A DNA stretch of 64,000 nucleotides from Pseudopyrenochaeta lycopersici (taxonomy: Eukaryota > Ascomycota > Dothideomycetes > Pleosporales > Pseudopyrenochaetaceae), in the NCBI GenBank assembly GCA_003313425.1, contig NHZP01000005.1, forward strand, positions 372,001-436,000. The letters are read 5' to 3'. Made by a program: the position numbers and the translations under genes. Below are positions 8,457 through 62,014 of this stretch, piece by piece; the stretch's first letter is position 1, and every line of letters begins with the position of its first letter. Below the pieces are notes generated by a model. It had not been told where the DNA came from. It was given only the letters and a program-made list of their open reading frames with translations, and made no database searches.

Positions 8457-9688
8457 CGGCCACTGAAACGGCGGGATCGGCTTGTTGACAAGACGGCATC
8501 GGGGATAGATATGTCCGGCATTAGATTAGCTCAGCAAGTCAACCTTTGGCGCGCATCATCAATCAATGTAGACATATGTCAAAATGTGACGCTGTTTAGC
8601 TTACCTTTTCATTATTTATTAGATTAAGTACAGCTGGGATATTAGCATTTCTGCTCATGCACGCTAGCGAGGTATCAAAAATATTATAACAATGTATAGT
8701 TATAGTCTCATAAATATAATCTGTGCTAAAAATGAATACAATAAGTAAATGTAAATTCCGGAAAGATGATCTACACAATGCACATCAGCAGTATCAAGGA
8801 TGGGCATTTCATTTGAGTGCTCCTCGACTATTACCTAGGTTCAATGTAGGTGATGCGAGTTGGGTAAACATGTCCACATAGAATGAGAGTGATAGATTCC
8901 AGCGTAGGAAGTTTGAGATAGCATGATTTAAAGTTCAGAAGCTTACAGGGTATTGACCAATAGTGAAGGATAGTAGATGAGAGTGGTCTTTCTATAGGCT
9001 TTAAGGGAAAGCTTTGGGAATTAGTAAGGTAGGAAACGGGCATAAAATTAAAAGAAAAATACAAAGAGATGCTTGGTTTAAGCGCCTAATGTTGTTACAA
9101 ATTAGGAATACTCAGGTCAATGACGTGGGTCAGCCACCTTATAAAAGCTGGTCCTGGGACCTTGCGTATTGAAGGGAGATATGCCGAGGTACGACATCAC
9201 GTGAGTAGTCACGAGTCTCAAAACTCTATCCACTTTCCCGGGTCTTATCCTGCATTTGCAATGAGCCCCCTGAAATTGTATGAGACGCCCATGTCAATTC
9301 ATCTCCTAGAATAGACCCTTATGCTTCCTTGTCTTCAACACAATATTCTATTGAATAGTGAGAGCAATTGAACTCTCTGCCTCTACTATATCGATCTCCC
9401 ACTCGCGCGATTAAACCCCCAGTCCTGTAGTCCCATTGCAATTTTGACTAGCCCTACCTATCTTCATAGTACGTCACTCGCTTATGTAGAGTAAGCTTAG
9501 CCAAGGCGGCCCACCCATCGCGTATCACCTGTTGCGTGCCCCACCAATCTTCACAGATCAACTCTGTAAGTGCTGTTATTACGTCCACTATTGTATTTAT
9601 CAATCTTGTCCAGGGTGGTGCTTTAACTTATCTATCGCGTCATCGCGTTGACTCCCCAGGCCGCGGAGTCAATCGTCGCCCGCTGGCG
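8457..9688. other. Intergenic, AT-rich middle part
   Basis: This holds the divergent upstream regions of the Zn2Cys6 regulator and the NLR gene. About 8590-9100 is visibly AT-rich. No inverted repeat ends or gene were recognised. The NLR frame stays open upstream to 9536, but without an ATG until 9689. Confidence 0.45.
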
Positions 9689-12487
9689 ATGCGGCTCTTG
9701 CAACTGCAGGATAACGATGAATTCACTCCCGTTGAATATTCGAGCAGCCAGATCCCACGGTACGCAATTCTTTCACATACCTGGGGAGCAGATCACGAGG
9801 AAGTGACCTTTAAAGACTTGATAGACTGTACAGGCATGCAAAAGCTAGGTTACCAAAAACTCCGCTTCTGTGGAAAGCAAGCTGCCAACGATGGATTGGA
9901 GATTTTCTGGGTGGATACCTGCTGCATCGATAAATCAAGCAGTGCAGAGCTTTCCGAAGCTATCAACTCAATGTTCCAGTGGTACTGCAAGGCAGACAAG
10001 TGCTACGTATACCTATCCGACGTATCGAGTGACAGCGACACAATCCAGGAGGAGCTATCATCTAACAAGACGTGGAAGCAGGCATTTCGAAATAGTAGAT
10101 GGTTTACGCGAGGCTGGACTCTTCAAGAGTTGCTCGCTCCGCGGTCTGTGGAATTCTTTTCTGCTGAAGGCAATAAACTTGGGAACCGAGCTTCACTCAT
10201 ACAGGAGGTACATGAAGCTACAGGAATTGCTGTTAAGGCTCTTGAAGGAACACCTTTATCTCAGTTCAGCGTTAATGAGCGGCTTTCCTGGGCGCAAAAG
10301 CGTACAACGAAACGTGATGAGGATGCAGCATATTGTTTACTGGGCATTTTTGACATTCAAATGCCGCTTCTATACGGCGAAGGCCAAAAGAAGGCGTTTT
10401 CTCGACTGCGCAAAGAGATAGAGGGACCGACCAACACCATTTCATCTTCGATGATACCTGGGGCTACTTGTTGGAGTGTTCCCTTTGGGAGAAATCAACA
10501 ATTCGTAGGTCGACAATATCACCTTGATCGACTTGAGAACGCTCTCTTTCTAGGAAAAGATCAACCACCTAGAATAGCAATTACTGGCCTTGGTGGTGTT
10601 GGTAAGACTCAAATCGTTCTTGAGCTGGCATACCGCACAAAAGAAAAGTATCCAGACTGTACTATTCTCTGGATACCGGCTACTAACGTAGAAAGCCTCC
10701 AAAAGGCTTTCAGAGTCGTAGGCCAGCAACTTAGGATACCTGGAACCGAGGAGACGCAAGCTGACGTAATGGAGCTGGTTCAAAACTACTTGAGCCAAGA
10801 GAGCGCTGGCCAGTGGCTACTTATAGTTGACAATATTGACGACATGAATATATGGACTTCTGAGTTGAGAGACTATATGCCTAAGAGCCAACGAGGGTCT
10901 GTAGTTTGCACTACTCGAAGCAGAAAGGCAGCTGTCAAGATTGCTACAGCACAGAACATATTCGAAGTGCGAGAAATGGATAAAGAGATGGCTGTGCAGC
11001 TACTAGCCAGATCACTGATCGACCAGAAACTCATGGAGTTCGACCAGGACGCACTTACTTTAATTACGCAACTCACATTCCTTCCTCTTGCCATCACACA
11101 GGCAGCAGCATACATCAACGAGAATGGGATCAGACTCTCCGACTACCTCTCGCTCTTAGAGGAACAGGAGCAAGATGTGATAGATCTTCTTAGCGAAGAC
11201 TTTGAAGATAACTGGAGATACCACGATATTAAGAATCCTGTAGCCACAACGTGGTTAATTTCGTTTCAACAAATCCACCAAATTGACCCTCTTGCAGCAG
11301 AGTATCTATCTTTTATGTCGTGCCTAGACCCTAAGGAGATTCCGCTATCACTTCTCCCGCCTGGACCATCCCGAAAGAAGGAAATGGATGCAATCGGACT
11401 GCTCGACGCATACTCGGTCATCCGTAGAAGACCAGACAATAACGCCCTTGACATCCATCGGCTAGTACACCTTGTGATGCGGAGCTGGTTACGGAGGCAG
11501 AACTCGCTAGATAAATGGAAGGCAAAGGTAATGCAGCGATTAGGAGAGGTGTTCCCAAAAAGCGATCCCGAGAATCGAAGTATATGGAGACTGTACCTTT
11601 CGCAAACCCATTATTTCCTTATATCCGACGACGCGGATACGTACACCGATGAGAGTATAGAGCTCGCGAGAAAATTTGCGTTGTGCCTGGCTAGTGACGG
11701 AAGATATAACGAAGCGGAGGAATGGTTTATGCAAGTAATTAATGCATTGAAGGGTGTTATTGGCGAAGAGCATCCGAATATGCTTATATGTATGAGCAAC
11801 CTCGCTGCAACATATGCAGACCAGGGCCGATTGAAAGAGGCTGAACAACTGGCGTTGCACGTGTTGGAAATAAGCAAAAGGGTATTTGGCGGGGAACATC
11901 CTGATACGCTGATATGCATGAACAATCTCGCCTCAACTTTTGCAGATCAGGGTCGGTGGCAAGAGGCAGAGGAGCTTCACGAACAAACCTTGCAGGTGAG
12001 AAAGAGGATGCTCGGCGAGGAACACCCTGATACGCTGATAAGCATGAACAACCTCGCCTCAACGTATGCAGTCCAAGGGCGGTGGAATGATGCTCAGGAG
12101 ATCTACCTTCAGACTTTAGAGGTAAGAAAGAGGGAGCTTGGTAAAGAACACCCCAATACGCTCATGAGCATGAACAACCTCGCCTCAACGTATGTCAACC
12201 AGGAGCGGTGGCAAGAGGCAGAAGAGCTTTACGTACAAACCTACAATGTTAGAAAGAAAGTGCTTGGTGAGAAGCACCCTGATACGCTGATTACGATGCA
12301 CAACCTCAGTTGTACTTTGGATGGTGGTAGTCATCGATATAAGGCAATATCACTGATGGAAAAATGCTGTCAACTACGGGAAGACGCTCTTGGCCTTCAC
12401 CACCCCCTCACGTTAGCATCTCTGCAGACTCTGGATAAATGGCGCCTGGAAGCCTTACATATCCGGGAATGGACGGGATCCGATTGA
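9689..12487 (+). CDS. NLR-type receptor: HET - NB-ARC - TPR, intronless
   Basis: This encodes 932 residues from the ATG at 9689. The MRLLQL start is typical for HET proteins; the frame is open further upstream but lacks an ATG. The HET domain opens with YAILSHTWG at residue 25 and continues with FWVDTCCIDK. The NB-ARC ATPase shows FVGR, a P-loop GLGGVGKT from residue 300, a Walker B-like LLIVDNIDD and an LPLAI motif. The C-terminus has five kinesin-light-chain-type TPR units of 42 residues (126 bases each from 11765). Fungal proteins of this design are intracellular receptors for non-self recognition, with HET as cell-death effector (family knowledge). All motifs look intact, so I expect a working receptor. 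Its ligand is unknown. Confidence 0.92.
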   Translation: MRLLQLQDNDEFTPVEYSSSQIPRYAILSHTWGADHEEVTFKDLIDCTGMQKLGYQKLRFCGKQAANDGLEIFWVDTCCIDKSSSAELSEAINSMFQWYCKADKCYVYLSDVSSDSDTIQEELSSNKTWKQAFRNSRWFTRGWTLQELLAPRSVEFFSAEGNKLGNRASLIQEVHEATGIAVKALEGTPLSQFSVNERLSWAQKRTTKRDEDAAYCLLGIFDIQMPLLYGEGQKKAFSRLRKEIEGPTNTISSSMIPGATCWSVPFGRNQQFVGRQYHLDRLENALFLGKDQPPRIAITGLGGVGKTQIVLELAYRTKEKYPDCTILWIPATNVESLQKAFRVVGQQLRIPGTEETQADVMELVQNYLSQESAGQWLLIVDNIDDMNIWTSELRDYMPKSQRGSVVCTTRSRKAAVKIATAQNIFEVREMDKEMAVQLLARSLIDQKLMEFDQDALTLITQLTFLPLAITQAAAYINENGIRLSDYLSLLEEQEQDVIDLLSEDFEDNWRYHDIKNPVATTWLISFQQIHQIDPLAAEYLSFMSCLDPKEIPLSLLPPGPSRKKEMDAIGLLDAYSVIRRRPDNNALDIHRLVHLVMRSWLRRQNSLDKWKAKVMQRLGEVFPKSDPENRSIWRLYLSQTHYFLISDDADTYTDESIELARKFALCLASDGRYNEAEEWFMQVINALKGVIGEEHPNMLICMSNLAATYADQGRLKEAEQLALHVLEISKRVFGGEHPDTLICMNNLASTFADQGRWQEAEELHEQTLQVRKRMLGEEHPDTLISMNNLASTYAVQGRWNDAQEIYLQTLEVRKRELGKEHPNTLMSMNNLASTYVNQERWQEAEELYVQTYNVRKKVLGEKHPDTLITMHNLSCTLDGGSHRYKAISLMEKCCQLREDALGLHHPLTLASLQTLDKWRLEALHIREWTGSD
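11765..12394 (+). repeat. Five 126-base TPR-coding tandem repeats in the NLR gene
   Basis: Units start at 11765, 11891, 12017, 12143 and 12269, exactly 126 bases apart. Each encodes a (E/G/K)(E/K)HP-(D/N)TL-x-x-MNNLA unit. The middle three are close to identical over long stretches of DNA, the first and last more diverged. This is the pattern expected of repeats that exchange sequence or change copy number. Confidence 0.85.
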
Positions 12488-17735: not shown

Positions 17736-18320
17736 TTACGAGGTGTAAGAGCAAGAGACTGGGTTGTCCTCCTTGAGAGCCCTAGCAATGAAGCCAACAC
17801 AACCCGAGTTGCCACCAGGGTTCTCGTTTCCACTGAGCCAGATAGAGTAACCGCCTGATAGCGCACCGGGGCAAGCCTGGAAGCCAAGGTTCGGTCCATT
17901 ACCGCCATTGAAGACCAAGTTGCTGTCCTCGTCGATGGAGAAGGTAGTTCGTTCGCTGTTGCGCGAGGGTGGCTGGACACCAGTGGTGTACTGGATAACA
18001 CCCTGGCCCATACCGGAGCGGTCGACGAAGAGCTGCTGAGGCGGGTTTTCGGTGTTCAGGTAGAGTGCGCCGGATGACAGACGGAAGGAAGCGTAGTTCA
18101 CATCTGCGCTGCAGGAAGCGTTCTGCTTAGGGGCGTTGATAAGAAGACCGCTGTTGGCAGCTTGTACGCTACCGTACTGGATGTCTGAACCGGAACGAAT
18201 GGTCATGATGCGGAAGACGTCGCCATCATTGATCTTTGAAGTATCGGGGTTGGTGCCACAGGGGGAGGCAGAGACGAGAGCCATAGAGGCGGCGGCAATG
18301 GTTGCAGTGGTGAACTTCAT
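17736..18320 (-). CDS. phiA: PhiA-like secreted cell-wall protein
   Basis: This single exon encodes 194 residues. The first 19 or so (MKFTTATIAAASMALVSAS) are a signal peptide. Family marks are FRIMTIRSGSDIQYGSVQA near the N-terminus, the central DRSGMGQGVIQYTTG, and the C-terminal NPGGNSGCVGF with a final Cys pair member in PVSCSY. In Aspergillus the homologue is a cell-wall protein needed for phialide and conidium formation and is often among the abundant secreted proteins (family knowledge). Length is normal. The ATG is 18318-18320. Role in this fungus is inferred from the family only. Confidence 0.88.
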   Translation of the reverse strand: MKFTTATIAAASMALVSASPCGTNPDTSKINDGDVFRIMTIRSGSDIQYGSVQAANSGLLINAPKQNASCSADVNYASFRLSSGALYLNTENPPQQLFVDRSGMGQGVIQYTTGVQPPSRNSERTTFSIDEDSNLVFNGGNGPNLGFQACPGALSGGYSIWLSGNENPGGNSGCVGFIARALKEDNPVSCSYTS

Positions 18321-42407: not shown

Positions 42408-43976
42408 TTAAATTTCGTAATCGACATGAGATGAATTCGATACTGGTGGCGAAAGCGGTTGCGACGCCTCTAGGTTCCGCCTCTTCGCAAATGGCATGGG
42501 CTCGTCGCCTTCGTAAACACGCTTCTGCGGCGAGCTGGTCGAATCGATCTGCATCATCTCAGAAGGCGAGGCGTCATCCATCCTCTGTGACAGTATCCGA
42601 CTCTTCCTCCTCTCTTCCTTTTTCTTGACTGTGAACTTCTTCCATTGTGTGATCACGAACATGAACAAAGCAACATTTTCGAAATACCGTCTCGGCGGTG
42701 CAGGCTTGATACCTAACCATTCGATCGTTTTCAAGCCCACCAATGGCTTATTCTGGAATGCTTTTGCCAAAGTGTGGATCATGCACTCAATTTGATCCTT
42801 CTCAAGCACCTTATCTCGAAGACCGAAACGCAAGGTCAGATATGCATTCGGTGAGAGCTTATGTGTTGATTCCTGCAGTGCCCTGGCCTTCTCAATATCA
42901 GTTTTCAGTGGTGCAAGAAAGATATGAGATTCCGTGTTCTGCGTGGACTGGATACGAGACCAGACATGAGAGGGTGTGTCGGAGCGGCGTTTGTCGACAA
43001 GGATGCGTTGGTTAAGACTATCGGTGGAAAAGGGTCGATCGCCGTACTCTTGGAGAAGCTCGGCCAGGGCATCTATGAGCGCTCGTGTGAACGAGTATTC
43101 GCCAGGTGATGCGGTTGTCTGGTCAATTGAACAGGCACTTAGCAATTCGAATTTCTTCATATCCGCCTTGCTGGATTTGACGAGGTTGCTGGAGTAGCAC
43201 GTGTCAAGGATAGTCAGGACATCGCTCTCGACTTCCTCCTCTTTGAGCTTCTCTTCGACCTTGTTCCAGTTGCAGCGCGCAGCTTGATTCCCATCTCCGA
43301 TAGACGGGTTCCGGCTCGCTGTAAGCTCCAAACATCTCTTTTCGTCATGGAAGATACCATGGCCAGTGTAGTACAGGATGAGAAGGTTACGTCGGCCGTC
43401 GTTGTCTCGAATAAAATCACTAACGTGACTGTTCAGCTGGTGCTGGGGCTTTCTATCGTTATTCAACTCGACGGTTTTGGTGTGAAAGTGGAAGCGGTCT
43501 CTGAATAGAGTCTCTAGTTCTTGTGCCTAGTAGACTAATTAGCAGGCCGCAGTGTGAGTGCCGTGTCCTTGTGGACGGACCTCCTTCCCAGTCTTGAGCT
43601 CGTCTAGATCGTCTGCCCATTTGATCAAAAGCACTGCAACTTGGGAGTATTCATCCCACACGTTCCAGCTTTTGGGGCTGGCTTTTTCCCACCACTCTTG
43701 CATCTGAACCGCGCTCTCCTGGTATGTGACATCCTCTGGGCTCAACTTGCTTTGCACAGGAGATTCGCCGTTCTGCGAGCAAGACACTTCATGGTCTGAT
43801 TTGCCTTCGATGGACTGAATTCGTAAAATATCAGTGTGGACCAGTTTGTTTGTGGAAGGGTTCGAGTTCGAGTTCGAGTTCGAGTTCGAGTTCGAGTTCG
43901 AATCATGTTTGGGAGCAAGCTCGGCTGCCATCGCTGCCTCAACTATGCGAGCCGCAGCGCTTGCCGAAGCCGCCAT
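42408..43976 (-). CDS. Caspase-like (peptidase C14) protein, two exons
   Basis: Exons are 43581-43976 and 42408-43526, giving 504 residues. The 54-base intron has a GTCCGT donor, a GCTAAT branch-like site and TAG acceptor. The caspase-like core has its catalytic His188 in LILYYTGHG and Cys242 in ILDTCYSS, with the expected beta-strand contexts. The N-terminus (residues 1-60) is Ala-rich and then carries seven Ser-Asn pairs coded by a hexanucleotide repeat. The C-terminus is basic then Ser/Pro-rich (KKKEERRKSR, KRVYEGDEPMPFAKRR), possibly nuclear. Fungal C14 proteins take part in stress response and regulated cell death (family knowledge). There is no metacaspase zinc-finger prodomain. Substrate is unknown. 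Confidence 0.83.
43861..43901. repeat. Hexanucleotide microsatellite (ttcgag)x6.8, coding
   Basis: Nearly seven perfect copies of ttcgag lie in exon 1 of the caspase-like gene, where on the minus strand they encode alternating Ser-Asn. Length changes by whole units keep the frame. Confidence 0.95.
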
Positions 43977-60778: not shown

Positions 60779-62014
60779 ATGATTGTGAACAAGCTCCTCA
60801 AGATACTCACCTTGTTCTTCTTTGCCGGCTTCGTCGCCGCCGCTTCTTCATTCGACGTCGATGGTTCCGGCGAAGGACAATGCCAAACTGACTGCCAGCT
60901 CGACTTCATCAGCTGCGTCGGTCACCATCAGGTAGATAGCTTCTGTCGCGATCTTGTGTGTAATTACTATGGCAATAAGGTATGTTTTCTCGTCTGTCTT
61001 GCAATTCAGTGGAGAATCCTCGCTGGAGCAAGGTGGCTGACGAATGCACAGTGTCAGGCTTGCCAGGCATGCGGAAAGGCTGTGGCTACCTCGTACAAGT
61101 TTACGGCCGTCGTTGATGTCGCTGATAAGGGCTCAACCAAGATCATTAAGCGCGAGCCTCAGACAGATCCATCCAAGCAGCAGTGTATCATCGTCTGCCA
61201 TCATGCTAGCTGCCACCGTCGCTGCTTCTCCAAAGATTCCGAGCTACCTAACGACCTCGACGATGCGCTGGTCATTAATGAGGCAAGTCTGCAGAATGGT
61301 ACCGTTTCGATCAAGATAGAGAACTTGGATGAGCGTTCGCAAGGGCCACGTTGCATCCATTGGGTGTGCGTCTTCCGCAACTGCAACTATGTCAAGTGCA
61401 ATGACCAGGTCAGCACCGAAGCAGTCGCCTACCTCGCAACTCTTGACATGCTGGCTGAGCAGGGTGATGTCCAGGCCTCGCCAGAGGGGTGCCGTAAGGT
61501 TTGCAAAGAGAATACGGACCATGCTATGTGTATTGAGCTGTGCACCCCCGGCGACATAGGAAAACGCTCGGTAAACCTAACCGTTAGGGGTAGATGCCAG
61601 CGCCATTGCATGGGAAAGACATGCTGGACTGTTTGTTACCCGCCTTACGGCGCGGAGGACTCTGTTAAGAAGCGTTCTTCTGAGCTGGCTCCACCTGGTC
61701 AATGCCAGCGCCATTGCTGGGGTAAGACATGCTGGGCTGTTTGCTACCCTCCCTATGGCGCCGACGACAACATGGGCGAGGAGGCTGTTCGGACACCCTC
61801 AGACACTTGCAGTAAAGTCTGCAACGAGAAAGACCCGGTCCAAGCTATGTGTATCATGATCTGCGCCCCTCCGGATCTCCGCGTTGATGAGGTTGAGAAG
61901 CGAAATGTTGACTTGGCTCCACGCGGTCAATGCCAGCGTCACTGCTGGGGTAAGACATGCTGGGCGGTCTGCTACCCTCCTTTCCGTGCTGAGGAGGACG
62001 GCGTGAGCATCTAG
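60779..62014 (+). CDS. Secreted cysteine-rich repeat precursor with Lys-Arg (Kex2-type) sites
   Basis: Exons are 60779-60979 and 61052-62014, giving 387 residues. The 72-base intron is in frame, so retention would give 411. A signal peptide (cut near residue 21) leads into a Cys-rich segment (residues 35-74). Seven four-Cys modules follow, at about residues 112-125, 168-183, 214-231, 249-262, 285-298, 320-338 and 361-374. Six have CxxxC...CxxxC spacing; the second has x4 spacing. Modules 4, 5 and 7 are nearly identical (CQRHCWGKTCWAVC with YPP after). Modules 3 and 6 form a second type (CxKVC...AMCIxxC). Lys-Arg pairs at 100-101, 238-239, 274-275 and 350-351 separate them and would let Kex2 release peptides. 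I know no family with this layout. Effector, antimicrobial or RiPP-like precursor are the options. Confidence 0.85.
   Translation: MIVNKLLKILTLFFFAGFVAAASSFDVDGSGEGQCQTDCQLDFISCVGHHQVDSFCRDLVCNYYGNKVCFLVCLAIQWRILAGARWLTNAQCQACQACGKAVATSYKFTAVVDVADKGSTKIIKREPQTDPSKQQCIIVCHHASCHRRCFSKDSELPNDLDDALVINEASLQNGTVSIKIENLDERSQGPRCIHWVCVFRNCNYVKCNDQVSTEAVAYLATLDMLAEQGDVQASPEGCRKVCKENTDHAMCIELCTPGDIGKRSVNLTVRGRCQRHCMGKTCWTVCYPPYGAEDSVKKRSSELAPPGQCQRHCWGKTCWAVCYPPYGADDNMGEEAVRTPSDTCSKVCNEKDPVQAMCIMICAPPDLRVDEVEKRNVDLAPRGQCQRHCWGKTCWAVCYPPFRAEEDGVSI
61595..61972 (+). repeat. Three near-identical CQRHC-type coding repeats
   Basis: The copies 61595-61636, 61703-61744 and 61931-61972 encode the same four-Cys core and share long runs of identical bases, including third codon positions. 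The surrounding residues (LAPxGQ before, YPPYGA after) repeat too. This points to recent duplication or gene conversion. Confidence 0.85.

Follow-up and report, generated by a model that had tools for sequence, protein, structure and literature searches.

A predicted Kex2-type polyprotein of four-cysteine modules in Pseudopyrenochaeta lycopersici and related fungi

RESULTS

The locus and its surroundings

We analyzed 64,000 nucleotides (the window) of contig C5 from the genome assembly of Pseudopyrenochaeta lycopersici, which holds 62,731,430 bases in 188 contigs. In NCBI taxonomy the species belongs to Pseudopyrenochaetaceae (Pleosporineae) and includes strain CRA-PAV_ER 1211; we take Pyrenochaeta lycopersici to be the same species. 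Pyrenochaeta lycopersici is described as a tomato pathogen (PMC6034849).

Near the end of the window, an open reading frame of 411 open codons occupies 60779-62014 on the + strand, as do all features of this gene given below. Removal of a 72-base intron leaves a predicted protein of 387 aa in two exons. Exon 1 (60779..60979, residues 1-67) begins at a start common to the relatives P0001 to P0003, and residues 1-22 (60779-60844) form a predicted signal peptide, judged by eye; a signal-peptide-like start is clear by eye in the window protein and is present in P0001 to P0003 as well, as their alignment indicates. Exon 2 (61052..62014), set by the open reading frame and the intron model, carries residues 68-387 and the stop. 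The intron between them (60980-61051, phase 0, no stop, GT...CTGAC...CAG) was placed from the sequence and from the relatives. Its 24 coded residues are missing from P0001 and P0003, which are annotated in other fungi, and P0002 has 24 extra residues exactly at this place, as expected of an unspliced call, so that the exon structure, including the 72-base intron of the initial annotation, is supported. The intron's length is divisible by three and it contains no stop; its retention would add 24 residues and an extra CX3C, and it is conceivable that splicing and retention give two isoforms.

As far as genome searches reach, the gene is single copy. Downstream of it, on the opposite strand, lies the mitochondrial ribosomal gene Img2. 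One Kex2-type gene, with a subtilase and a P-domain, was found in the genome. UstYa (PF11807) has at least 28 matches in the genome, and among the matches listed only one is on contig C5, at 1557152, with the precursor gene at 432779. The initial annotation had seen no UstYa/DUF3328 gene in the window, and this holds at a larger scale, as none was found within 1.1 Mb of the precursor gene on the contig among the matches listed. Elsewhere in the window, a single open frame at 9536-12487 (+) combines a HET domain, NB-ARC, and TPR repeats in the manner of an NLR-like incompatibility gene. A Peptidase_C14 (caspase-domain) match at 42408-43466 (-), weak and under the cut-off (E 0.0011), marks a possible metacaspase-like gene, and an ORF of 194 residues at 17736-18320 (-) opens with a signal-peptide-like segment and matches no Pfam family.

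Four-cysteine modules and a repeated unit

The window protein contains 36 Cys in total. The alignment and the Cys count delimit an N-terminal eight-Cys region (residues 35-74, 60881..61072), split by the intron, which is an addition to the features first listed. After it come seven four-Cys modules, six of the form CX3C-Xn-CX3C (n = 4, 8, 4, 4, 9, 4) and one CX4C-X4-CX4C. Module 2 (CX3CX4CX3C, residues 112-125, 61184..61225) and module 4 (CX3CX8CX3C, residues 214-231, 61490..61543) were recognized from their Cys pattern, as was module 7 (CX3CX9CX3C, residues 320-338, 61808..61864); module 3 (CX4CX4CX4C, residues 168-183, 61352..61399) was drawn from the Cys pattern and the alignment. Modules 5 (residues 249-262, 61595..61636), 6 (residues 285-298, 61703..61744), and 8 (residues 361-374, 61931..61972) share the form CX3CX4CX3C and are three near-identical end modules. 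Such a pattern is rare in shuffled sequence: the sequence beyond residue 22 contains 13 CX3C pairs, against a shuffle mean of 3.4 (13 reached in 0/20000 shuffles), and six CX3C-X(2-14)-CX3C modules, against a shuffle mean of 0.11 (six reached in 0/20000). The signal peptide by eye, the seven modules, six of them CX3C-spaced, and the four Lys-Arg pairs between module groups are thus as initially annotated.

DNA comparison shows that the three end modules lie in a direct repeat of 104 bases (copies at 61556-61659, 61664-61767, and 61892-61995; span 61556..61995), and that the outer copies share 67% and 80% identity with the middle copy. All three copies start at a predicted Kex2 site. Comparison of the end-module cores finds change mainly at synonymous sites, with 6.0/10 synonymous and 1.0/44 nonsynonymous sites changed between modules 6 and 8, 5.0/10 and 3.0/44 between 5 and 6, and 7.0/10 and 4.0/44 between 5 and 8. 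These counts indicate module duplication with purifying selection.

Alignment also identified a conserved central stretch with an N-G-T sequon between modules 2 and 3 (residues 131-162, 61241..61336). It is strongly conserved in 7/7 family members, with an N-x-T sequon in 6/7, and D135, L140, L147, T151, V152, I154, and D160 are invariant. It may serve as a carrier or as a chaperone-like pro-part.

An orphan family with members in Pleosporineae

A search of 5.8 billion proteins, with shared five-residue words required, yielded six relatives, giving an orphan family of seven with the window protein; remoter relatives may exist. Four of the six are from Pyrenochaeta sp. MPI-SDFR-AT-0127, Neocucurbitaria sp. 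VM-36, Neocucurbitaria cava, and Cucurbitaria berberidis, and NCBI taxonomy assigns the first, third, and fourth of these to Cucurbitariaceae, Pleosporineae. In P0004, P0005, and P0006 at least exon 1 is missing, probably because their gene models are incomplete. A Pfam scan of five of the seven proteins gave three weak matches only (E 0.034 to 0.17), all under the cut-off; the six relatives carry no precomputed Pfam domain, and no relative of the family was found in the PDB.

Conservation centers on the modules. Aligned Cys are kept at 36/36 positions in P0001, 32/32 in P0002, 28/28 in P0003, 21/21 in P0004, and 27/29 in P0005 (P0006 was not counted), and modules are more similar than linkers in 5/5 relatives (P0001 to P0005), with identities of 115/161 in modules versus 112/203 in linkers for P0001 and of 44/87 versus 64/140 for P0004. 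The number of units changes across the family, since P0002 is one unit short and P0004 has a repeated unit of its own, EKR-module-EKR.

Predicted Kex2 sites between and before modules

Each of the four Lys-Arg pairs (residues 100, 238, 274, and 350) falls between modules, and an Arg-Arg at residue 123 falls within module 2. By motif, and by alignment for the first, the four pairs define predicted Kex2 site 1 (IIKR, residues 98-101, 61142..61153), site 2 (IGKR, residues 236-239, 61556..61567), site 3 (VKKR, residues 272-275, 61664..61675), and site 4 (VEKR, residues 348-351, 61892..61903). Kex2 motifs in use for searches are KR, RR, and LxxR (PMC8528282, PMC10942635, PMC12141369). Extended sites of the last kind are predicted by motif before module 5 (LTVR, residues 243-246, 61577..61588) and before module 8 (LAPR, residues 355-358, 61913..61924). 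Module 6 is preceded by LAPP; the extended site is missing there, and the module is predicted to stay joined to module 7.

One reading of the protein is that it is an uncut, beads-on-a-string Cys-rich surface or wall protein in which the Lys-Arg pairs are incidental. Their number alone is only mildly unusual, with four or more KR in 399/20000 shuffles, and individual sites turn over among relatives: of the members having the place, 3/7 are dibasic at site 2, 3/6 at site 3, and 3/4 at site 4, and some relatives' sites are gone altogether (EKH, EKS, EKA). Others have lost Lys-Arg and kept P4 and P1, as in VEER (P0001), VDMR (P0003), and IVSR (P0002). Against an incidental origin stands the context of the sites. 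An aliphatic P4 is a reported Kex2 preference (PMC8528282), and P4 is V, I, or L at 18/24 linker KR/RR in the seven proteins versus 20/56 in 13 unrelated window ORFs (Fisher p 0.0016, a value overstated, as is the shuffle test of site placement, by the relatedness of the seven proteins). P4 is one of these three residues at all four KR sites of the window protein, and when sites are collapsed to alignment columns, P4 is mostly aliphatic in 7/11 linker dibasic columns.

The placement of single-arginine motifs also argues against an uncut protein. We widened LxxR to [LIV]xxR, based on the Kex2 motifs in use, and found the widened motif ending 0-5 residues before Cys1 in 15/18 end modules versus 1/20 other modules; the strict LxxR precedes 12 of the 18. 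Four of those 15 also have a dibasic and 11 are without any, so that this test and the P4 test overlap in four sites. Shuffles, run with 19 modules, one of them assigned to the wrong type, gave a mean of 1.3 and reached 15 in 0/5000, and as a control, any P1 letter except Arg gives at most 4 and an aliphatic residue anywhere except P4 at most 7. By eye, no GPI or transmembrane tail is apparent at the C-terminus. Taken together, we consider the uncut reading unlikely.

A second possibility is a single cut at site 1 that takes off the N-terminal part, by pro-domain processing as in K2PP effectors, and leaves the remainder as one multi-module protein. Site 1 is the best-kept site, with [IV]xxR in 5/5 family members covering the position and a dibasic in four of the five, and pro-domain removal by Kex2 is reported as shown for several fungal effectors (PMC8528282). 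The K2PP criterion describes a disordered N-terminal pro-domain before a KR, RR, or LxxR in the first half of the protein (PMC8528282), whereas the part before site 1 here holds the eight-Cys region and by eye is unlike a disordered pro-domain. A single cut would also leave unexplained both the [LIV]xxR motifs before 15/18 end modules versus 1/20 others and the EKR-flanked units of P0004, making this reading fairly unlikely.

Processing at sites between modules, as first proposed for the window protein, is instead strengthened, on the sequence evidence, by the aliphatic P4 at dibasics and by the [LIV]xxR motifs before end modules. With in silico cuts at [LIV]xxR and KR/RR, 14 of the 18 end modules would each come out alone, as a four-Cys peptide that measures 22-36 residues once trimmed. 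Four end modules are exceptions: module 6 of the window protein would remain attached to module 7, in P0002 the first end module would remain attached to the one after it, and in P0004 and P0005 the first end modules fall in predicted fragments of more than 100 residues.

Predicted fold and charge of the end modules

For module 8, AlphaFold2 was given the 36 residues that follow the last Lys-Arg, and 8 alignment rows. The model has a mean pLDDT of 68.5 and a pTM of 0.31, with ten residues at 90 or above and a mean pLDDT of 93 over residues 11-20. Strands span residues 9-15 and 18-24, and the register read from the strand limits sets Cys10 opposite Cys23 and Cys14 opposite Cys19, with a Gly-Lys turn between. 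The end module is accordingly modeled as a beta-hairpin, with Cys1 predicted to face Cys4, Cys2 to face Cys3, and a two-residue turn. By eye, the turn of the end modules looks more variable across species than do their second strand and Tyr-Pro-Pro tail. The fold in a low-confidence model of exon 2 (mean pLDDT 36) is also beta. No solved-structure match to the module 8 model was found, which is unsurprising for a fold so small.

These models bear on the analogy to plant alpha-hairpinins drawn in the initial annotation, and on the reading that the products are alpha-hairpinin-like helix-loop-helix peptides from a modular precursor. Six of the seven window modules fit the CX3C-Xn-CX3C spacing, for which a 2024 plant survey accepts n of 4-20 and reports n = 4 in 92/869 predicted 4C peptides (PMC11591084), and plant modular precursors are reported to reach 12 modules. 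However, alpha-hairpinins are defined by the helix-loop-helix (PMC11591084), and AlphaFold2 gives beta for module 8 and likewise in the low-confidence exon 2 model. Where activity is proven, n is 11-13 (PMC11591084), a range outside which the n = 4 of the end modules lies, and no alpha-hairpinin came up in sequence and fold searches. We regard this reading as highly improbable.

A different kinship is with the beta-hairpin antimicrobial peptides, and an antimicrobial product had been among those first suggested. In its two predicted strands and its two pairs of Cys in facing positions, the hairpin recalls tachyplesin and gomesin, and CX3CX4CX3C is their spacing. Released hairpins could then be membrane-active peptides of this type, and acidic tails could mask a basic core. 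Core charge, taken from Cys1 through four residues beyond Cys4, weakens the case: it runs from -2 to +2 over the 18 end modules, with a mean of +0.7 and none at +3 or above. Tachyplesins and polyphemusins are reported to carry +6 or +7 (PMC4410394), and against such values the near-neutral cores make pore formation unlikely. An antimicrobial role of this type is, in our view, decidedly unlikely. The window modules further differ from these peptides in being fungal and in having a multi-copy precursor, although beta-hairpin antimicrobial peptides, too, are said to be commonly freed from proproteins (PMC13001179).

DISCUSSION

The explanation that we favor, and hold on balance to be probable, is a Kex2-type polyprotein whose repeated C-terminal modules would become free two-disulfide beta-hairpins of ~22-36 residues outside the cell. 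The sequences themselves show conserved modules that were duplicated with purifying selection, and they place Kex2-type motifs directly before end modules. Building on these, the precursor would fold and form its disulfides in the ER and would then be cleaved in the Golgi at [IV]xKR. Most end modules would then be cut again, at an LxxR located a few residues ahead of Cys1, which would remove a short spacer, and a Kex1-type carboxypeptidase would trim the C-terminal Lys and Arg. The N-terminal eight-Cys region and the central stretch may serve as a carrier or pro-part, or may be products of their own. The weakest steps are the last: outside the hypha, the free and near-neutral hairpins might serve as ligands for another organism, a plant root or a competing microbe, with contact perhaps made through the conserved Cys-Trp-x-Val-Cys-Tyr-Pro-Pro face and the variable turn.

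Among known systems, Kex2-processed repeat proteins (KEPs) offer a close comparison. KEPs are reported to be common, with 7878 in 1345/1461 strains, and a UstYa gene lies near 22% of them (PMC7329392). The window gene resembles them in its signal-peptide-like start, its near-identical repeats with Kex2-type sites between, and the lack of UstYa nearby. It is unlike them in that its units are predicted four-Cys hairpins mixed with non-repeated Cys domains and that many of the predicted cuts are at LxxR. As described, both KEP surveys cut at dibasic sites only and take as their criterion at least three similar repeats between such sites (PMC6339444, PMC7329392). The window protein has three similar fragments (modules 5, 6 with 7, and 8), the last being C-terminal and as such initially excluded by the first survey (PMC6339444). 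Two KEP types of the 2020 survey, one spread across 18 genera and the other across 14, include Pyrenochaeta (PMC7329392), and the window gene or its kin might be listed unremarked in the supplementary lists of that survey. The word "disulfide" is missing from the main texts of both surveys (PMC6339444, PMC7329392). Judged by title and start of abstract, none of the open-access papers listed in literature searches describes this family.

Two further groups share parts of the design. K2PP effectors such as SnTox3 and the SIX proteins have KR, RR, or LxxR motifs in secreted Cys-rich proteins (PMC10942635, PMC8528282), but the motifs of the window protein recur between several modules and not once after an N-terminal pro-domain. 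The dikaritin RiPPs ustiloxin and phomopsin derive from a Kex2 multi-copy precursor, as is proposed here; in contrast, no UstYa match lies within 1.1 Mb of the window gene on the contig among the matches listed, and the units are long and Cys-rich. Kex2-processed repeat proteins as such are already known, and what appears to differ here is the four-Cys unit, predicted to be a hairpin, together with the LxxR sites.

More broadly, and with some hesitation, we put forward as a tentative proposal a fungal disulfide beta-hairpin family, made as a polyprotein from which pairs of Kex2-type cuts, one at [IV]xKR and one, beyond a short spacer, at LxxR, would free the end units, with unit number and turn sequence varying between species. 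Such a family would represent a multi-copy scaffold outside animals and plants that dibasic-only surveys may have largely missed. A 2026 review holds natural beta-hairpin antimicrobial peptides to be restricted, to its authors' knowledge, to animals and plants (PMC13001179). If our proposal is true, fungi make disulfide hairpin peptides, a fold class restricted in that review to animals and plants, from multi-copy precursors, and many of these hairpins may be cut at the single-arginine LxxR, invisible to the dibasic rules of both KEP surveys. The products would be short, easily synthesized peptides with a testable fold and target.
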